From: Geitlerinema sp. BBD 1991-9
Lineage (GTDB): Bacteria > Cyanobacteriota > Cyanobacteriia > Cyanobacteriales > Geitlerinemataceae
DNA: 64,000 nt
Direction of reading: 5' to 3'
NCBI GenBank assembly: GCA_001657325.1
Contig: LWRO01000015.1
Span: forward strand, 1-64,000
The position numbers were made by a program, and so were the translations under genes. The first letter of the stretch is position 1, and every line of letters begins with the position of its first letter. This document shows, piece by piece, positions 8,640 through 56,719 of this stretch. The notes beneath the pieces were generated by a model. It had not been told where the DNA came from. It was given only the letters and a program-made list of their open reading frames with translations, and made no database searches.

Positions 8640-11600
8640 TTATAAACATTCTTTAGGTGGATTTTCAAACCAATTAGGTAAGTTTTCTTTATTTGTTGTA
8701 TTTAGATATGCTTCTAAATGTTGACAGCTATATTCTAATAACCCATGTAAATCTCTTGCTTGAGGAGTTAAGTTCGTATTTATTTTCCAAAGCTTTACAG
8801 TTCGATCGTGGCTGGCAGAAGCCACCATCAAGAAATTTGAGTTTCGATCGTAAAAGGTGTCGATCGAATTTATCCAACTTTGATGGCTTCCTAATATTTG
8901 GAATTCTAAAGTATTTTCGGTATTAAAATTTTGAATCATTTTATCGACATTCCAAAGTTTTACAACTTCATCAGTGCCACTAGAAATAATAAACTTTCCA
9001 TTGGGACTGAACGCAAGTCCACCATAATTATACTCGCCAGTTTCAATTTTTCCAACTGGATTCCAGTTTTCTTCTTGCTTTTCCCAAATTTTTATCACAC
9101 CATCATAACTCGCAGAAGCTAAGCGATCTCCATCTCGGTTAAACCTGACGATAGCAACTCCATCTGGATGTCTACCAATTTCTATAGCACGGTTATTTTG
9201 ACAAAGTGAGACGATTCCTACTTCGTTGGAGTAAGCTATAACTGTTCGATCTGTTGGATGAAAATCAATACTGTTAATATCATTGGACATATTTTGAGGT
9301 GTTGAGTTTTCTTGCGACAAATTCATGGCTTCATTGCATACCTCTAAAGCTTGTTGACTACTATCGTTATTGAAACTCCATATTTTTATGATTCCATCTC
9401 TACCAGAAGCTGCAATCGCCTTGTTGTCGGGGCTAAAGCTAAGACCATAAACTGGCCCTCCACTATCAAAGGTTTCAGCTTCTACTAATTTTCGATCTTC
9501 GATCTTCCATAACTTTACCTTTCCATCTTTACCCCCTGAAGCAAGTAAAGATCCATCATCGTTAAACCGAACTTCCCAAACCATATCTGAATGAGCTTGA
9601 GGAACATTATCTAATTGCGAGCCATCTTGACTCCACAGTATGATATTTCCCTTCTCATGAGCAGTAACAATTTGACCGTTTTGAGGATGAAAACTTACAC
9701 TTTTAACTATTCCTGTTAGATCGTTTAATGTTTCAGGAAGCTCTAGCCGATTGTACTCATATATTTGTGTGATTATTGTGTTCAATGTTGTATTTACTAA
9801 TGATCTTCTATTTATAACTGTATTTTCGAGAGCGTCAAGTGCTTTTACACTGGCCATCATTGCTTCAAGTTGATTGCCCTGCTGAAGATAAATTTCGGCT
9901 GGAGAAATCCACGAGTCAGCCAAAAGCCTGTGCTGAAATTGGCTCCAAGATTCTACGAAAGCCAAAGCTGTAATGGTAAAGAGAATACTCGCTCCAATAG
10001 TCACTCTAGCGCGAGCTTTCTCTTGTTTGGCTCGTTCCGCTTCAAGTTCTGCCTTAGCCTCAGCAAGTTGTCGCAGTTCTGCTTCAGCTTTTGCTTTCTC
10101 TTCTGCCAGTCGTCGCAGTTGACGTTCCCGCTCTAACTCCGCTTCTCGATCTCGATCTCGCTTCTCTACACTTTTCTCGAAAAACTCCCGTTCCAACTCC
10201 AGCAGACGGGGATTCGTTCGTTCCACCCACTCCGTAACAGCCACCAACTTTGCCCCCGCCAGCAACGCCTCCTCTGACTTCTGATAACTGGCTTCCCATT
10301 CCCGAGCGTCAGCACTCAAACGCCGATTAAACCGCAGATTTTCTCGATCTGCCTCGATCCAACTCACCAATAACCGCCAATCGGACAGTAAGGCTTCGTG
10401 GGCAACTTCCACTTTATTTCGATCGGTCACAATTAGCCGTTGCTCTCGATCGGCCAACAGTCGAATCGTCCGCTGACACTGCTCGGTAGAGTCCGCAATT
10501 TGCCTCAAATGCTCTGGTGTAACTCGTCGGCGGGTCACTTGTCGATCCTCCCCAAGCTGCACCAACTCCAAAAACAGACGACGCACGAACTCTTTATCCG
10601 CAGGCGCTAAATTGTGATAAAGCTCGTCAGCGCGTTTTTCCAACGCACCCATAACACCGCCGATTTGCTGGTATCCCTGACACGTCAGCAAGGGTTGAGG
10701 AGAAGATACGTCGGTGATGCAGACGCGCCACAACTCAGCCAGAGCGTACTGCAACAGGGGTAACGCTCCCGCTCGATCGACTACGTCAGAGATAATTTGA
10801 CCCTCCAACCCCAATTCAAACCTTACCCCCTGTTTTTGAGCTGGCTTGACGATGGCTTGTTCCAATTCCGCTGGTGTGAGTGGCGTGACAAAATAAGTCG
10901 TCGGGGGGGTCTTGTTAATCAGAATTGCCGCCTCTTCGTAAGCCGCAATTCGATCGAGAAAATCCCCCCGAACGGCCACCACCACACGCATTTCCTGCCC
11001 TAGCTTCAATCGCTCTTCCATCACCCGACGAACGAACTGGCGGCGTTCGGCTTCGTCGTCGCAGAGGGTAAACACCTCCTCGAGTTGGTCGATAAAGAGT
11101 AAAAACGGTCGATCGAGCGATATTCCGGTTAACGCTTTCTCCAGTTCTTCTAAGGGACGAGTCCCAGGGGTAAACGTCCGTATTGGCCATTGGCTGCTCC
11201 CCGGTAAACAATTGTCGTGTAGCGCTGGAATTAATCCCGCTTTCACCAGAGAAGACTTGCCGCACCCCGAAGGACCGATGACTGCCAAAAAACGATTGCT
11301 TTGCAGTCGATCGATCGAGGCTCGAATTGCCCGTTCTCGTCCAAAAAAATAATCGGCTTGCTGTTGCTCGAAAGCCTTGAGTCCGAGATAGGGATTATTC
11401 CAATTTACCGCCGTTTCGGGAGAAGTTTCGATCGTTGGCGGTTGCAGTGGATACGCGACTAGACAGATCGATCGACCCCAACCTAACTTAATGGGTTCTT
11501 GCTGAGAACCTTTGAGTTCTCGGCTGACACAATCAAACAAGCGCTCTCCGCTAATTTCTCCGTCACTATCTGCATTGTCGGCTGATAGTCCATTCAACAA

Positions 11601-12206
11601 CGCCCCCGTAAACACGCTATGTTTGTCTTGTTGACGCGCGCGAGCGACCTGAAAGTTACGACAGGCTGTAATCAGATAGTAATCTTTTTGAGAACGAAAG
11701 GCATTAAAGCTGTGTTCTAATAGATTTCGCTCGATAAACTGACCGCTATGGCAACAGTCTAAGATGACAACTAAACTGCTCAGCTCAGAACGACTAATTA
11801 GCTCGTTTAAACCGTCTAGAGGAATGCCATACTTTTGCTCGACGATCTCTTCTCCGCGAAACTCAACTTCGCAATCTGAAGCCGCTAAGTATCCTCTTGG
11901 TTGCCCCAAGTTTTCAGACACTTTGATTCCATGTCCTGTAAAGTACAGGAGTGCCTCGCTTCTGTGAGCTTGCTCTAACAGAAGCGTCTGAACGGCTTTC
12001 CCCAGACTCGCCCCCGTTACAGGTTCGCCAATTATTTCCCGCTTCGAGGTTTCTCGATTGCGTCGGTCGGGAAAGCGCTTGACTTCGGTAAAGTTTCCAT
12101 AAGTTTCTAAGACGCGAGCGACGGCCTCTGCATCTGTCGTGGTCTTCGTCAACTTGCTGTAGTGTTGGTACTGAGAAATACCAACAACCAGTGCATAACG
12201 AGCCAT
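8640..12206 (-). CDS. Caspase-like/nSTAND NTPase/WD40 repeat giant protein
   Basis: An 1188-residue multidomain protein. Residues 1-255 are a caspase-like p20 domain with the catalytic dyad His92 (YFTGHG) and Cys152 (DCCHSG). Residues 270-650 are an nSTAND1-type P-loop NTPase beginning NPYLGLKAFEQQQADYFFGRE, with Walker A GPSGCGKS at 311-318 and Walker B FLLFIDQLEE. A charged coiled coil (about 690-765) leads to one hydrophobic segment (TIGASILFTITALAFV). From about 840 to the end are at least six WD40 repeats with KLW/KIW closings. In this architecture the WD40 part is thought to sense a ligand, the STAND module to oligomerise on NTP binding, and the peptidase to be the effector, in regulated cell death or antiphage defence. 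The WD40 part is AT-richer than the rest. The TRYPCO1 gene is divergent, 145 bases away. Confidence 0.9.
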   Translation of the reverse strand: MARYALVVGISQYQHYSKLTKTTTDAEAVARVLETYGNFTEVKRFPDRRNRETSKREIIGEPVTGASLGKAVQTLLLEQAHRSEALLYFTGHGIKVSENLGQPRGYLAASDCEVEFRGEEIVEQKYGIPLDGLNELISRSELSSLVVILDCCHSGQFIERNLLEHSFNAFRSQKDYYLITACRNFQVARARQQDKHSVFTGALLNGLSADNADSDGEISGERLFDCVSRELKGSQQEPIKLGWGRSICLVAYPLQPPTIETSPETAVNWNNPYLGLKAFEQQQADYFFGRERAIRASIDRLQSNRFLAVIGPSGCGKSSLVKAGLIPALHDNCLPGSSQWPIRTFTPGTRPLEELEKALTGISLDRPFLLFIDQLEEVFTLCDDEAERRQFVRRVMEERLKLGQEMRVVVAVRGDFLDRIAAYEEAAILINKTPPTTYFVTPLTPAELEQAIVKPAQKQGVRFELGLEGQIISDVVDRAGALPLLQYALAELWRVCITDVSSPQPLLTCQGYQQIGGVMGALEKRADELYHNLAPADKEFVRRLFLELVQLGEDRQVTRRRVTPEHLRQIADSTEQCQRTIRLLADREQRLIVTDRNKVEVAHEALLSDWRLLVSWIEADRENLRFNRRLSADAREWEASYQKSEEALLAGAKLVAVTEWVERTNPRLLELEREFFEKSVEKRDRDREAELERERQLRRLAEEKAKAEAELRQLAEAKAELEAERAKQEKARARVTIGASILFTITALAFVESWSQFQHRLLADSWISPAEIYLQQGNQLEAMMASVKALDALENTVINRRSLVNTTLNTIITQIYEYNRLELPETLNDLTGIVKSVSFHPQNGQIVTAHEKGNIILWSQDGSQLDNVPQAHSDMVWEVRFNDDGSLLASGGKDGKVKLWKIEDRKLVEAETFDSGGPVYGLSFSPDNKAIAASGRDGIIKIWSFNNDSSQQALEVCNEAMNLSQENSTPQNMSNDINSIDFHPTDRTVIAYSNEVGIVSLCQNNRAIEIGRHPDGVAIVRFNRDGDRLASASYDGVIKIWEKQEENWNPVGKIETGEYNYGGLAFSPNGKFIISSGTDEVVKLWNVDKMIQNFNTENTLEFQILGSHQSWINSIDTFYDRNSNFLMVASASHDRTVKLWKINTNLTPQARDLHGLLEYSCQHLEAYLNTTNKENLPNWFENPPKECL

Positions 12207-14487: not shown

Positions 14488-16230
14488 ATGGATCTCATCA
14501 AACAAGTTGGAACCCGCTTTGACGACACGTTAATCGGAACTGACGGTGACGACAAGTTACTGGGCAAAAAGGGTAACGACCTTCTGTTCGGTCGTGCTGG
14601 AAACGATCGACTCAATGGAGGCGCGGGCAACGACGAACTCTTGGGAGAGGAGGGAGACGATACCCTACGCGGCGGAAAAGGCCGCGACGTCCTCGATGGT
14701 GGTTCGGGCAACGACGATCTCAAAGGGGGAGCAGGCGATGATGTCTTACTGAGCAGCGAAGGGATCGATCGACTCCTCGGGAATGCAGGAAACGACCGCT
14801 TTAAAATTGGAGTCTTTGAAGCGGGATACTTCCTCGACGGCGGCCGAGAAAATCGCGATGGCGACGAGAACGAAGCCGGGAGTGGTTTAACCGGCGATAC
14901 CCTCGATTTGTCAGAGTTGGATTTAACGAATGTCGATCGTGTTTTCGTCGATCTCGACATCGAAAATCAAGGTGCGCTGAATCCAGCTCCCCCCAGCCAA
15001 AATGGAATTTTACGCATCGATCGTGGGGGAATCGAGATCGAGATCGAAGTCGATAACGTAGAAAACATCATTGGTTCTTCTTTCGGCGAAACGCTATTCG
15101 GCAATCAGGAAAACAACGTGATTCTCGGCGGTGCGGGAGACGATCGAATTCATCCCTTTGGGGGTGTCGATTTTGTCGATGGCGGCGACGGCATCGATAC
15201 GTTCTTGCTCAATGCTGCACCTCAAGGAGTCTCGATCGATTTCGAGCGTGGCACGGCTGGCCCCAACACCTTCGTCAACTTTGAGAACGCCAATGGTAGC
15301 GCAGTGGGCGACGATGCCATTTTGGGCGATGCGAACGTCAACGTGCTAAACGGTCTCGGTGGCAACGACGAACTCAACGGCCGCGGTGGTGGAGACACCC
15401 TTGAAGGGGGGACAGGCTTCGATCGATTTGTTTTCGATGGCGATCCCTTTGATGGTATTGACGTCTCGGCCCCGGGACGGCAGATCGTCGGCAACGAAGA
15501 CTTTATCGTCGATTTCTCGCTTGCAGACGATCGAATTGTCCTCAACTCAGAGGATTTCGAGGTTTCAGGGGAATTGTCGTTCTTCAACGGCCTTGCCGAA
15601 GACTTACCCAGCGGTGGCGTCAACCTCATCGTTCTACAAAACAGCGACAACGATGACAATCCAGACACTCCCTTCCTCGCTGGTACGGCTGCTAACCTCA
15701 TCGCCGAACGAGTTGACGAGGCGGGTGCAGGCTTCTTCGTCTACTTCAACTCGAATCTCGGTTTAAACCGGCTCGTCTATTCGACCGATCTCAGCGATGC
15801 CAGCGCCGATCTAAAAATTGTCGCTCGCCTGACCAATTTAGAAGGAGAAGACGCGATCGATGCTTTGTCCGCGTTCGAGCGCGATAACTTTGCCTTCATT
15901 GGCGACAACGTCGACGAATTCGGTATCGGTGAGGATAGCGATCGAGAGGTGAGTGAAACGGAAGACAATCTCGGTCGATCTCTGACCGCTTCTTCGACCC
16001 ATAACCTCGATCGACTGACCGAAAGCGGAAGCAGCAATGTCAGCTTGGAACCCACAATCGAAGTGTTAGCAACCTTTGGCTCTCCAGCTTCGGGTTGGTT
16101 GGCTGAAGTCTACGAAAAAGCGAACGCTTCGGATGGGTTGGATGCTGAAACATCGCTCGTCCTCGCCGATGGCTTCACAAATCTAGATGCTTTTGTCATG
16201 GAAGACTTAATGTCTGGACTCGGCGTTTAA
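14488..16230 (+). CDS. RTX (hemolysin-type calcium-binding repeat) protein
   Basis: A 580-residue acidic protein. Residues 10-115 contain about nine glycine-rich nonapeptides of the GGxGxDxLx type (for example GKKGNDLLFGRAGNDRLNG), which fold into a calcium-binding beta-roll. More copies appear near 210-240 and 285-310. The central and C-terminal parts are beta-rich, with a calcium-dependent adhesin flavour. There is no N-terminal signal peptide, as usual for type I secretion where the signal is at the C-terminus. No type I exporter is in the window. A hairpin at 16253-16273 follows. Likely an extracellular or surface protein; activity (adhesin, lytic or structural) cannot be assigned. Confidence 0.87.
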   Translation: MDLIKQVGTRFDDTLIGTDGDDKLLGKKGNDLLFGRAGNDRLNGGAGNDELLGEEGDDTLRGGKGRDVLDGGSGNDDLKGGAGDDVLLSSEGIDRLLGNAGNDRFKIGVFEAGYFLDGGRENRDGDENEAGSGLTGDTLDLSELDLTNVDRVFVDLDIENQGALNPAPPSQNGILRIDRGGIEIEIEVDNVENIIGSSFGETLFGNQENNVILGGAGDDRIHPFGGVDFVDGGDGIDTFLLNAAPQGVSIDFERGTAGPNTFVNFENANGSAVGDDAILGDANVNVLNGLGGNDELNGRGGGDTLEGGTGFDRFVFDGDPFDGIDVSAPGRQIVGNEDFIVDFSLADDRIVLNSEDFEVSGELSFFNGLAEDLPSGGVNLIVLQNSDNDDNPDTPFLAGTAANLIAERVDEAGAGFFVYFNSNLGLNRLVYSTDLSDASADLKIVARLTNLEGEDAIDALSAFERDNFAFIGDNVDEFGIGEDSDREVSETEDNLGRSLTASSTHNLDRLTESGSSNVSLEPTIEVLATFGSPASGWLAEVYEKANASDGLDAETSLVLADGFTNLDAFVMEDLMSGLGV

Positions 16231-51525: not shown

Positions 51526-53190
51526 GTGGAGAACTCGCAGGCTATCAATTCAAATCGGTTTCGCTACGCGATCGAACAGTCTCCCGCCTCGATCGCGATC
51601 TTTGACCTACAAACTGCCTTAGTCACCTGTAGTCAACAGTGGCGCGAGGATTTGGGTTGGGATGGAACACCTGTTGAAGGTCAGCGCTACAGCTATCTCG
51701 TTCCCCAAGCTCCCCATCAGTGGAACGACGCTTACCAAACTGCTTTACGGGGTCAATCCGCTCGCTGCGAAGCGCACCTTCTCGTCCGAGCAGACGATAC
51801 GCAACAATGGATTCAGGGAAAATTTAACCCTTGGTACGACGAAACCGGCGAACTGTGTGGGGTTCTATGGATGACGGAAGCGCTCTCGGAACAAGAGGGA
51901 GACGATTTCAGTTGGAATCGCGTCTTGCAACTGTCGCCGGACTTATATTGCATTGCAGGGTTTGATGGTTATTTCAAGCGGCTCAATCTTGCCTGGGAAA
52001 AGGTTTTGGGATATACCCTAAGCGATCTCAAAGCGAAACCGTTTATCGAGTTTGTCCATCCTGACGATCGAGGTCAGACCTTAACCTGCGCTCGATCGTT
52101 AACCGATGGGGGAATCGTTCAAACTTTTGAAAATCGCTATCGTTGCCGAGATGGCTCTCATCGATGGTTGCAATGGACTTCAGTGTCTGTTGTCGAACGT
52201 CAACTCTCCTATGCCATCGCGCGGGATATGACCGATCGAAAGAAAACAGAACTCGTGCTACGGGAAAACGAAGCGAAATTACAACAGCAAACGGTCGATC
52301 TCACGCGCACCTTACAAGAACTGCGTCAAACGCAAATGCAACTGGTGCAAACGGAAAAGATGTCGAGCTTGGGACAGCTCATTGCCGGAGTTGCCCATGA
52401 AATTAACAACCCTGTGAATTTCATCTACGGAAATCTCGTTCACGCGAAGGAATACACTGAAGATATTCTCGGACTGTTAGAACTCTATCAAGAGTTTTAC
52501 CAGCAACCTGCACCTGAAATTCAAGAAGAAGCGGAGTCGATCGATCTGGAATTTTTGGTTGACGATTTACCACAGTTGTTGTCGTCGATGACGGTGGGTG
52601 CAAACCGAATTAAAGAAATTGTTGCGTCCTTGCGAAACTTCTCTCGGATGGACGAAGTCGAAATGACGCGGGTTGACTTGCACGAGGGGATTGATAGTAC
52701 TCTGACCATTCTGCAAAATCGCCTCAAAGCAAAACATACGCGCCCAGAAATCGAAATCGTGAAAGAATACGGCGAGCTGCCGAAGGTGCAGTGTTTTGCC
52801 GGACAGATCAACCAAGTCTTTATGAATATTATTAGTAATGCGGTCGATGCTCTTGAGGAGCGCGATAAAGATCGTACTTATAGGGAAATCGAGAAGAATC
52901 CCAGTGCAATCCGGATTTGTACGCTCCAACCCGACCCCGATACGATTGCTATTCGGATTATCGATAACGGACCGGGTATTTCGGACGATTTGATCGGTCA
53001 ACTGTTCGACCCGTTTTTTACAACGAAACCCATGGGGAAAGGAACGGGTTTAGGTTTGTCGATTAGCTATCAAATTATTACTGAAAAACATGGGGGGACG
53101 CTCTCGTGTCGATCGGCAGTCGGAGAAGGAACGGAGTTTTCCATCTCGATTCCTGTCGAACACGAGCGTGAGGACGAACCGTCTGAGTAG
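51526..53190 (+). CDS. PAS-PAS sensor histidine kinase
   Basis: A 554-residue soluble kinase. Two PAS domains lie at about 10-120 and 128-245 (LYCIAGFDGYFKRLNLAWEKVLGYT is the second start). A coiled linker (LVLRENEAKLQQQTVDLTRTLQELRQTQMQL) leads to the dimerisation domain with the phosphorylated His291 in [12 protein letters not shown]. The ATPase has the N box VFMNIISNAVDAL, the G1 box IIDNGPGIS, and [19 protein letters not shown]. The start is GTG. There is no membrane segment and no receiver. The kinase core is very similar to that of the next gene (53774), evidence of duplication. The partner regulator is not adjacent. Confidence 0.92.
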   Translation: MENSQAINSNRFRYAIEQSPASIAIFDLQTALVTCSQQWREDLGWDGTPVEGQRYSYLVPQAPHQWNDAYQTALRGQSARCEAHLLVRADDTQQWIQGKFNPWYDETGELCGVLWMTEALSEQEGDDFSWNRVLQLSPDLYCIAGFDGYFKRLNLAWEKVLGYTLSDLKAKPFIEFVHPDDRGQTLTCARSLTDGGIVQTFENRYRCRDGSHRWLQWTSVSVVERQLSYAIARDMTDRKKTELVLRENEAKLQQQTVDLTRTLQELRQTQMQLVQTEKMSSLGQLIAGVAHEINNPVNFIYGNLVHAKEYTEDILGLLELYQEFYQQPAPEIQEEAESIDLEFLVDDLPQLLSSMTVGANRIKEIVASLRNFSRMDEVEMTRVDLHEGIDSTLTILQNRLKAKHTRPEIEIVKEYGELPKVQCFAGQINQVFMNIISNAVDALEERDKDRTYREIEKNPSAIRICTLQPDPDTIAIRIIDNGPGISDDLIGQLFDPFFTTKPMGKGTGLGLSISYQIITEKHGGTLSCRSAVGEGTEFSISIPVEHEREDEPSE

Positions 53191-53773
53191 GAGGTCGATC
53201 GATCTTTGACCGTTTCTGACCTACACGACACGATTTGCAACGAACATTGTTGCAAAATTCTCAGATTCCGCATCGATCGATCTTACGAGTGACACTCTCT
53301 CAGAACGCTGCGAGTGCTTTGCTATCTTACGATCGAGCTGAAACACTTAAATATTACTACATGCTTGAGTGGTAATACTGGCGTAAAGTTCAGTATTTTC
53401 AACGTTGTTGATAAATAGCCGGCTTGGCTAAGGTAATATTGTACTATTTCATCTGTTTCCGATCGAAGCTCTGATGTTTGCATCACAGGCTCAAACATTC
53501 AAAAGCCGTATCTGTTATTTAATGAAGTCTTTATATTTTTGTGACAAGCCTCAAAATTTGTCTGGAATCGATCGCAAACAGAAATGCACTTCAAGGCAAT
53601 TCGCTCGATCTTAAATCGTGCCATCGGTTAAGCGAGAATATTGAGTTATTGCTTACTATCCGGGCATCTTGCTTGAATGCTTCGATCTTCTATCTTATAA
53701 CATCCTTAAACTTCAATACTCCGTTCGAGTATCTTCTTGGATTTAACCTGAAGTTTGAGCGAGAAATCTTGCT
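53191..53773. other. Intergenic region between the two kinase genes
   Basis: 583 bases, AT-rich toward the 3' half. A hairpin TTTGCAAC/GTTGCAAA (53234-53256) lies 44 bases after the first kinase gene and may contribute to termination, though the T tract is weak. No supported gene. The length argues that the two kinases are separate transcription units. Confidence 0.45.
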
Positions 53774-56719
53774 ATGGCATCGCATTCAAAAATTTTGAAA
53801 GAACGACGCGAGTATAATACTTGGGTCGCCAATGAAACTCTAGAGGACTATTCCTTACGCTACGCACCCCAATCATTTCGTAAGTGGCCAGAACTCCTCG
53901 TCGCCAACACTGCCTTGGGCGGAATCTCGTTCCTTGCCCTAGAAGCAATTGGTGGATCTCTTGCTATCAATTACGGTTTTACCAACTCATTCTGGGCGAT
54001 TACGATTGTCGGTGCAATTATTTTTCTAGCCGGAATTCCCATTACCTACTACGCCGCTAAATACAACATCGACATGGATTTGTTAACGCGCGGTGCAGGA
54101 TTTGGTTATATCGGTTCGACCATTACCTCCGTCATTTACGCTTCCTTTACCTTTATCTTTTTCGCGCTCGAAGCAGCGATTATGGCCCAGGCGTTGGAGT
54201 TGTACTTTCACCTTCCCTTGCCCTGGGGATACCTGCTGTGTTCCCTGATTATCATCCCGATGGTGTTTTACGGGGTCACCTTCATCAATCGACTGCAACT
54301 GTGGACCCAACCCCTATGGCTGGTGTTGATGGTGTCTCCATACCTCTTCGTCCTGTACAAAGAACCCGAGGCATTTTCAAACTGGCTGAACTTTAGCGGA
54401 AACTCCCCCAGTGGTACTGCGTTCGAGCCGTTACTGTTCGGCGCGGCAGCGACTGTATCGTTTTCGCTCATCGCCCAGTTGGGAGAACAAGTCGATTATT
54501 TAAGGTTTGTCCCCGATCGAGAAAAACACAATCGCGTTCGGTGGTGGGTGTCTGTGATGGCCGCCGGGCCGGGTTGGATCGTGTTGGGATGGGCCAAACA
54601 AATTGGCGGGGCGTTTCTCGCGTCCCTGGCCATTTACCACGGTGTATCGTTTGCAAAGGCGAAAGAGCCAATTCAAATGTATTTGGCGGGATTTTCCGAT
54701 ATGTTCGGCGATCCGGCGGTGGTCTTAGCCATCGGGACGCTGTTTGTGGTTGTTTCCCAAATCAAAATTAACGTTACCAACGCTTACGCCGGATCGTTAG
54801 CGTGGTCGAACTTCTTTTCGCGCCTGACCCACAACCACCCCGGTCGCGTCGTGTGGCTGGTGTTTAACGTGGCGATTTCCCTGTTGTTGATGGAATTAGG
54901 GGTTTTTGAAACCCTTGAAGCGGTTTTAGGGCTGTATTCCAACGTCGCAATTGCCTGGGTGGGGGCGTTAGTGGCTGACTTGGTTGTCAACAAGCCATTG
55001 GGATTGAGTCCGTCCTATATCGAATTCAAACGCGCTCACCTATACAACATCAATCCCGTCGGGTTTGGGTCGACGGTCATCGCCTCGCTGATTTCGATCG
55101 CGGCGTTCGTGGGAGCGTTTGGGGACTACGCCCAAGCTTACGCCCCGTTTCTCGCTTTGGGTATGGCTTTTGTCTTGTCTCCCATCATTGCGTTTGTCAC
55201 GGAAGGGAAATATTACATCGCTCGCGAAAATCACTACGCCAATCCCAACGCCAACGTACAGACGTTAGACGGTCGCGATCTCATCGCCTGTTGCTTGTGC
55301 GAACAGTCTTACGAACCGGCGGATATGGCCTATTGTCCGGTGTACGACGGCTCGATTTGTTCGTTGTGTTGTAGTCTCGACTCGCGATGTCACGATCGAT
55401 GCAAACCCGAACCCGATTTCATCGAACATCCGATTTTCAAGCAATTGCAAGCGGAGTTTCGGGAAAAAATCGCCCCTCACCTCGATCGAAAGCTCGTCCG
55501 GTTTCTGGGAAGTTATGCCTTGGTGGCTGGGGTGACAGCGGTTATTTTCGTCGTCGTCTACTGCTTCAGCATCCCCAGTTTTGGCGAACTGTCTCCTGAA
55601 ATGTCTGAAACGTTATTCGCTGCGTTTGTCGAACTGTACGCCCCATTAATTGTCATTTTAGGGATTGCATCGTGGTGGTACGTTCTGAGTGAAGATAGCC
55701 GAGAACTAGCGGAAGAAGAGCTCGACAAGCAAAACCAACAACTGCAACAAGAAATCCTCGATCGAACGGCAGCCGAAGAAGCTCTGCAACAACTCACGCG
55801 CGATCTAGAAGATCGCGTCCAACAACGGACGATCGAGTTATCGAGGGCGTTGAAAACGCTACAAGATACGCAGTCGCAACTGGTACAGACAGAAAAAATG
55901 TCCAGTTTGGGGCAACTGGTGGCGGGCGTCGCCCACGAAATCAACAACCCCGTGAATTTTATTTACGGTAACCTCGTTCATGCCGAGGAGTACATTCGAG
56001 ATATCTTGGATTTACTGGTGGTATACGAGGAAAAATATCCAACTCCCGACCCGGAAGTCGCCGAGAAAATCGAGGAGATCGAACTCGACTTTATTTCAGA
56101 CGACCTCCTCAATTTGCTTCGATCGATGAAAGTTGGGGCGCAGCGTATTCGGGAAATTGTCTTGAGTTTGCGGAATTTCAGCCGCCTCGACGAGTCGGAT
56201 GTCAAACCCGTGGATTTACACGAAGGGATTGACAGTACGCTGATGATTCTCAGCAACCGCTTGAAGGCCAAATCCGATCGTCCGGCGATCGAGGTGGTGA
56301 AGGATTACGGCGATTTACCTCTTGTCGAATGTTATGCCGGATCGCTCAACCAAGTGTTTATGAACGTGTTGACGAACGCTATCGATGCTTTGGAAGAGTA
56401 CGATCGAAATCGATCGATCGAAGACAAACGACGCGACCCTAGTCAACTTCGCATTTGCACGCAAGCTAACGCAACCCATGTCACCATTTCGATCGAAGAC
56501 AACGGCCCGGGCATTCCCAAGTCGCTACGATCGAAAATTTTCGATCCGTTCTTTACCACTAAACCGATGGGCAAAGGGACGGGTTTGGGAATGTCGATCA
56601 GCTATCAGATCGTCACCGAAAAACACGGTGGATCGTTGATCTGCTGTCCAGAAACCGATCGCGGTGCGAAGTTTGTCCTGGAGTTACCACTCCACGCAGA
56701 GCGCCTTAAGAGCGCCTAA
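53774..56719 (+). CDS. NCS1-type permease fused to histidine kinase
   Basis: A 981-residue fusion. Residues 30-475 form about 12 membrane helices with the pattern of NCS1 (purine/cytosine/allantoin) permeases: [33 protein letters not shown], and [17 protein letters not shown]. Residues 480-550 are cytoplasmic and cysteine-rich, with nine Cys between 506 and 543 ([28 protein letters not shown]), probably a zinc- or redox-binding module. Two more membrane helices (about 578-600 and 617-638) precede a coiled coil (645-705) and a kinase core with His721 ([12 protein letters not shown]) and [15 protein letters not shown]. The transporter may act as sensor for its substrate, as in CbrA. No receiver is adjacent. 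Confidence 0.88.

Follow-up and report, generated by a model that had tools for sequence, protein, structure and literature searches.

An NCS1-type transporter domain joined by a cysteine module to a histidine kinase in Geitlerinema: a predicted receptor for urea or short-chain amides

Results

Gene and domain layout

The window, the whole stretch of 64,000 nucleotides from Geitlerinema sp. BBD 1991-9 that we analysed, contains an open reading frame of 981 amino acids, free of internal stops and with a start codon consistent with its homologues, in which transporter, cysteine-rich, helical and kinase parts follow one another. The features discussed below are:

51526..53190, + strand: upstream neighbour, a PAS-PAS histidine kinase whose kinase core falls in the same subfamily, ending 583 bases before the gene
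53774..56719, + strand: whole gene, NCS1-type transporter/Cys module/two transmembrane helices/histidine kinase, 981 aa
53774..55243, + strand: NCS1-type transporter domain, residues 1-490 (hhalign, fold comparison)
54170..54172, + strand: E133 in TM3 (profile alignment, read by hand)
54476..54496, + strand: Q235-x-GEQ-x-D241 motif in the TM6 region, with Q235, G237, E238, Q239 and D241 invariant
54764..54781, + strand: K331-I-N-x-x-N336, putatively in TM8 (from the profile alignment)
55289..55402, + strand: Cys module, residues 506-543, CX2CX11CX7CX2CCX5CX3C (eight invariant Cys plus C507)
55484..55717, + strand: two additional helices, TM13-TM14, the linker to the kinase (AlphaFold model, hydropathy)
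55889..56143, + strand: dimerisation and phospho-acceptor region with H721 (Pfam HisKA 9e-4, HEINNP motif)
55934-55936, + strand: H721 codon
56342..56695, + strand: ATP-binding domain HATPase_c, residues 857-974 (Pfam 1.1e-22)

A first-pass annotation of this gene had proposed the same layout, and its parts stand. The nine cysteines that it counted in 38 residues lie at positions 506, 507, 509, 521, 529, 532, 533, 539 and 543, a span of exactly that length, and in 20000 shuffled versions of the protein nine were never packed so closely. The two extra helices are seen at residues 571-602 and 608-648, and the kinase core is complete, with the HEINNP motif around H721, the N box (N864/N868), D909-G911-G913 and G935/G937 all present. 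Pfam recognises the kinase part alone in the 981 residues (HATPase_c; HisKA weakly). The same fusion turns up again in 10 of the 194 genomes of cyanobacteria, where the input modules are 70-81% identical, and we therefore exclude an assembly artefact or a chance reading frame.

The Geitlerinema gene is an orphan, with genes for a response regulator, urt, urease or amidase all missing from the positions next to it, and the formamidase and urtA genes of this genome both lie on other contigs. No NtcA box (GTA-N8-TAC) occurs at 53190-53773, and the whole window has six where 4.9 are expected by chance; a scan for sigma-70 promoters and terminators returned nothing near the gene above shuffles. Elsewhere in the window we noted by eye a 1188-aa protein (8640..12206, - strand) with a caspase-like protease domain, then ATPase-like and WD40-like repeats, and a 580-aa protein (14488..16230, + strand) with GGxGxD-type calcium-binding repeats.

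Relationship of the transporter domain

With hmmscan, residues 1-650 have no Pfam or NCBIfam match, Transp_cyt_pur (PF02133) not being reached even at E 0.1, so that by Pfam's rule the protein falls in a distant NCS1 branch outside PF02133. The NCS1 assignment of residues 1-490 comes from profile-profile comparison and from the fold of a predicted model, not from Pfam. Using hhalign, a profile of 45 relatives aligned over 431 columns with PF02133 members from proteobacterial genomes (probability 99.3%, E 3.2e-20), as against a probability of 0.6% for SSS/SLC5 proteins, included as a control. The model that AlphaFold gave for residues 1-650 (mean pLDDT 81.8, pTM 0.80) has an N-terminal helix pattern compatible with an NCS1/LeuT-type transporter, and it scores Z 32.7 against CodB (7qoa) and 24.2-27.3 against Mhp1 (2jln), compared with about 23 or less for the remaining LeuT-fold families (next best 23.1). 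Profile and fold both put the domain with NCS1 and not with SLC5, which bears out the earlier view of an N-terminus distinct from the SLC5-based CbrA type. SLC5 ancestry is ruled out by the two hhalign probabilities and by the lack of any Pfam SSF (PF00474) match. A sequence search of the PDB with the module profile gave no significant match.

Correspondences with Mhp1 are readings of the profile alignment, not structural measurements. Of the four substrate residues of Mhp1 (W117, Q121, W220 and N318), N318 alone is kept, aligned with the invariant N336; pockets differ within NCS1. The substrate-binding Q121 of Mhp1 is aligned with E133, which is invariant in the sensors and in the stand-alone permease; W117 corresponds to F129 and W220 to about L232. 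By the same alignment the invariant K331 would lie close to S312/T313 of the Na2 site. The putative pocket residues E133, Q235-D241, K331 and N336 are common to sensors and stand-alone permease.

Cysteine module

All 81 fusions (from the best 80 of at least 593 genome loci) keep every one of the eight cysteines of the CX2CX11CX7CX2CCX5CX3C pattern; C507 is not invariant. Stand-alone permeases of Acinetobacter, Klebsiella and Moraxella have equivalents of C506, C509, C529 and C532 only, in a zinc-ribbon-like CX2C...CX2C arrangement; the Streptomyces homologue has these and C521, and in Arthrobacter and Tsukamurella nearly all eight are gone (0-1 in several Actinomycetota). A kinase-less Methylovirgula gene has all eight, and it clusters with the sensors in the tree. 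We infer two putative four-Cys sites, 506/509/529/532 and 521/533/539/543, and since the eight cysteines are fixed in every fusion but only about half occur in stand-alone permeases, we link the second site to signalling.

In the model of residues 480-650 the Cys region has short beta hairpins. Foldseek returned no match for the module at E<=0.001, just weak zinc-finger-like ones (RING/PHD/LIM-type), and the alignments of a further comparison, with VIA-align 2, fell mainly on the helices. A metal site is plausible from the zinc-ribbon spacing and the half-site kept in stand-alone permeases, and judged on spacing alone zinc appears more likely than Fe-S.

Distribution and exchange of outputs

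Scanning 84,980 species genomes yielded at least 593 relatives, Myxococcota and Sulfurimonas among them; the 80 genome loci that we analysed are the best-scoring of these, not a random sample. In a plasmid collection, tblastn matched 553 records, nearly all proteobacterial and mostly 45-62% identical over residues 1-541. Klebsiella plasmids often carry the sensor (342 Klebsiella records), annotated there as 'ATP-binding protein' or ArcB; one IncFIB plasmid (L018, NZ_MH745929.1) has it with urtABCDE and formamidase genes, near clpK/hsp20 and creatininase genes. Two records listed as plasmids, NZ_CP077849.1 (3.7 Mb) and CP125156.1 (5.4 Mb, with rpoD, rpsU and tsaD), are probably mislabelled chromosomes.

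Identity of the Geitlerinema protein to three Burkholderiaceae/Rhodobacteraceae orthologues is high in the transporter domain (56-62%) and the Cys module (52-64%) and low in the helix pair (17-19%) and the kinase (22-24%); within cyanobacteria the transporter domain is 77-84% identical. The outputs joined to the module include the cyanobacterial kinase, hybrid HK-REC(-Hpt), GGDEF and GGDEF-EAL. Because the transporter and Cys unit is well conserved yet fused to such differing outputs, we regard it as an input module. In Sulfurimonas (L042, L043, L064, L077) the fusion to GGDEF or GGDEF-EAL would tie the ligand to c-di-GMP. The cyanobacterial sequences form a single clade in the tree, neighbouring two myxobacterial sequences, and urease- or urt-associated clades are nested inside formamidase (fmdA)-associated loci.

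Gene neighbourhoods

Proteobacteria account for 68 loci among the best 80 of at least 593 relatives. Genes for a urea/amide ABC transporter (UrtA), formamidase or aliphatic amidase (FmdA/AmiE) or urease lie within 10 kb at 61 of these, and a LuxR-type response regulator is encoded downstream of the sensor at 64; the flanks of ordinary NCS1 and SSS genes in a subset of these genomes served as controls, and urea/amide genes were found at 0 of 20 such loci. Of the seven proteobacterial sensor loci without urea/amide genes, most sit on short contigs or have sister loci that carry them. On annotated plasmids, sensor and LuxR-type regulator stand divergent from urtABCDE-like genes and a formamidase gene (the regulator is not annotated in one Klebsiella plasmid record with this arrangement), or else the sensor lies beside a urease operon or beside urtABCDE alone. 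The association is absent from the flanks read for myxobacterial and Sulfurimonas relatives. Purine, pyrimidine, hydantoin and allantoin genes were absent from the annotated neighbourhoods read, around sensors and stand-alone homologues alike.

The stand-alone homologues, named 'allantoin/cytosine permease' (e.g. A. ursingii WP_052024140.1), show 44-48% identity across the transporter domain and the first part of the Cys module; they differ from the Geitlerinema protein in having no kinase and about four of the eight cysteines. They lie within a urease operon in Acinetobacter and Klebsiella, beside fmdA in Moraxella and Tsukamurella, and directly before an aliphatic amidase gene in Arthrobacter U41; those of Streptomyces and two other Arthrobacter have no urease, formamidase or amidase neighbour. 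A. baumannii carries a stand-alone permease gene transcribed divergently from those of a fused sensor and its regulator, which suggests a permease and a receptor for one compound. Among 185 genomes from the class of P. putida there is no stand-alone homologue, all matches falling within long fused frames. A search of the open-licence literature found no publication on the substrate of the stand-alone proteins.

The link to urea and amides is weaker in cyanobacteria than in proteobacteria. FmdA-type formamidase occurs in 6 of the 10 cyanobacteria with the sensor, being absent in four, and in 8 of the 184 without it (Fisher p 8e-6, kinship ignored); for urtA the counts are 9 of 10 and 52 of 184 (p 1.5e-4, kinship ignored), and AmiE is absent in all ten with the sensor. 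At MAG locus L033 urtABCD is divergent, and downstream comes an aliphatic amidase gene (AmiE; 79% to the Azospirillum enzyme). Apart from this locus no conserved cyanobacterial neighbour is convincing: other kinases, ORF shadows and genes common to close relatives recur, and a glutathione-transferase-like gene is found near four sensor loci.

Some cyanobacterial UrtA-like domains sit in frames of ~930-1610 aa (G008:C38:98997, G172:C90:7565, G172:C9:73322, G116:C283:18368, G039:C174:2918, G099:C1:5588335); they look fused to further domains and may be another type of urea/amide receptor, in some sensor-bearing genomes. Separately, formamidase genes about 0.6-7 kb from urtA (G172:C117, G193:C81, G175:C35) suggest amide-use clusters in cyanobacteria.

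Discussion

Ligand and mechanism

The architecture, the NCS1 relationship, the conservation and swapping of the module and the neighbourhood link were obtained by computation; ligand, zinc, signalling direction and regulon we infer. On balance we consider it probable that the protein is a transporter-derived receptor (a "transceptor") with a predicted urea or short-chain amide ligand and a probable zinc module. Because its relatives adjoin genes for urea and amide use, urea or small amides such as formamide are likelier ligands than nucleobases; gene neighbourhood has no power to tell urea from formamide or acetamide.

We propose that residues 1-490 would hold urea, or a short-chain amide such as formamide or acetamide, in their NCS1-type, LeuT-fold pocket, and that this binding, with or without transport, would switch the conformation of the transporter. 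The change would be relayed through the cytosolic Cys module, probably with two zinc sites, and the two further membrane helices to the coiled-coil/HisKA dimer, where autophosphorylation of H721 would be altered. The phosphoryl group would then pass to a response regulator whose gene lies elsewhere in the Geitlerinema genome, and the output would probably adjust uptake and hydrolysis of urea and amides as nitrogen sources. This relay is proposed by analogy with CbrA, in which the SLC5 domain is a histidine transporter and the kinase is thought to read its conformations (PMC13022988, PMC7096432).

A compatible variant, on the unlikely side in our judgement, makes the protein an active urea/amide permease whose kinase mainly reports flux, in which case loss of the gene would impair uptake too. 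Permease-like stand-alone homologues in urease operons favour it, as does the independence of histidine transport by CbrA from its kinase domains (PMC7096432), but the proteobacterial sensors already have beside them an ABC transporter dedicated to these compounds, and the invariant K331, placed near the Na2 site by alignment, suggests altered coupling.

The first-pass annotation had proposed a nucleobase-like ligand, and this part of it is not supported. An NCS1 domain that binds purine, pyrimidine, hydantoin or allantoin would fit the nearest solved folds, which are cytosine and hydantoin transporters, the weak match of a stand-alone homologue to the cytosine permease model (E 3e-4) and the automatic annotation of such homologues as allantoin/cytosine permeases; urea is also a possible end product of purine or allantoin breakdown, so a link is conceivable. 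However, orthologues and stand-alone homologues adjoin genes for urea/amide uptake and hydrolysis, the annotated regions read have no nucleobase, hydantoin or allantoin genes, and the Mhp1 Q121 and W117 positions are Glu and Phe. We regard a nucleobase or ureide transceptor as improbable. There is also little likelihood of an activity sensor in which an inert transporter domain accompanies a Cys module that responds to metal (zinc, or nickel for urease, a nickel-dependent enzyme) or redox state: the retention of eight cysteines in all 81 fusions and about half in stand-alone permeases would suit such a sensor, as would the nickel requirement, but among the large parts of the protein the transporter domain is the most conserved, unlike an inert membrane anchor, nickel is not needed at formamidase loci, and the Cys spacing is like that of structural zinc knuckles, with weak RING/PHD/LIM-type matches only.

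Beyond the transporter-derived receptor in Geitlerinema, a broader proposal is one we advance tentatively, as something that may or may not hold: an uncatalogued NCS1 branch for urea and short-chain amides, whose stand-alone members would be a novel type of urea/amide permease and whose fusions with a doubled Cys-metal site would be the missing inducer receptors of urea/formamide operons, in Proteobacteria and as cyanobacterial orphans, plugged into kinases and c-di-GMP enzymes. Since this widespread branch has no Pfam or NCBIfam model, its members are labelled merely 'ATP-binding protein'; NCBI CDD may contain an 'uncharacterised NCS1' subfamily that takes in part of the sensor family. The family offers a concrete candidate for bacterial urea/formamide sensing to switch on urt, fmdA and urease genes, and it leads us to expect urea/amide permeases of NCS1 type within urease operons.

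Comparison with known systems

In control of aliphatic amidase by short amides, AmiC/AmiR (PMC13209695) combines a soluble sensor of binding-protein type with an antiterminator, and is unrelated to the Geitlerinema protein. Closer in gene context is fmdCABDEF of Methylophilus methylotrophus, which serves uptake of short-chain amides and urea together with formamidase and is induced by formamide and urea; the cited review passage leaves the inducer sensor unnamed and mentions a putative positive regulator alone (PMC10781810). An fmdCABDEF-like cluster stands divergent to the proteobacterial sensor, and the sensor family is a candidate for the inducer sensor of such clusters. In the open-licence literature we found neither an NCS1-kinase fusion nor a urea/formamide sensor kinase, nor any biochemical result on a member of the family.

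With CodB (7qoa) and Mhp1 (2jln) the Geitlerinema family shares the fold, a whole-length profile match and the Asn equivalent to N318. It differs from them in having Glu for Q121, Phe for W117 and no PF02133 match, and in its C-terminal Cys module, fused output and urea/amide gene neighbours. CbrA, CrbS and RpuS (SLC5/STAC) likewise join a LeuT-fold transporter to a C-terminal kinase in nutrient-linked regulation, so that transporter-kinase fusions as such are already known. Their transporter is of SLC5 type, with a STAC four-helix linker domain as a mark of the class, and their ligands are histidine, acetate or pyruvate, whereas the Geitlerinema protein has an NCS1-type transporter, what appears to be a different linker, made of the eight-Cys module and two hydrophobic membrane helices, and a predicted urea or amide ligand. 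The NCS1 type, the eight-Cys module and that predicted ligand are new with respect to the open-licence literature searched: among fusions described as rare and mainly of the SLC5 kind, NCS1 makes a second branch.
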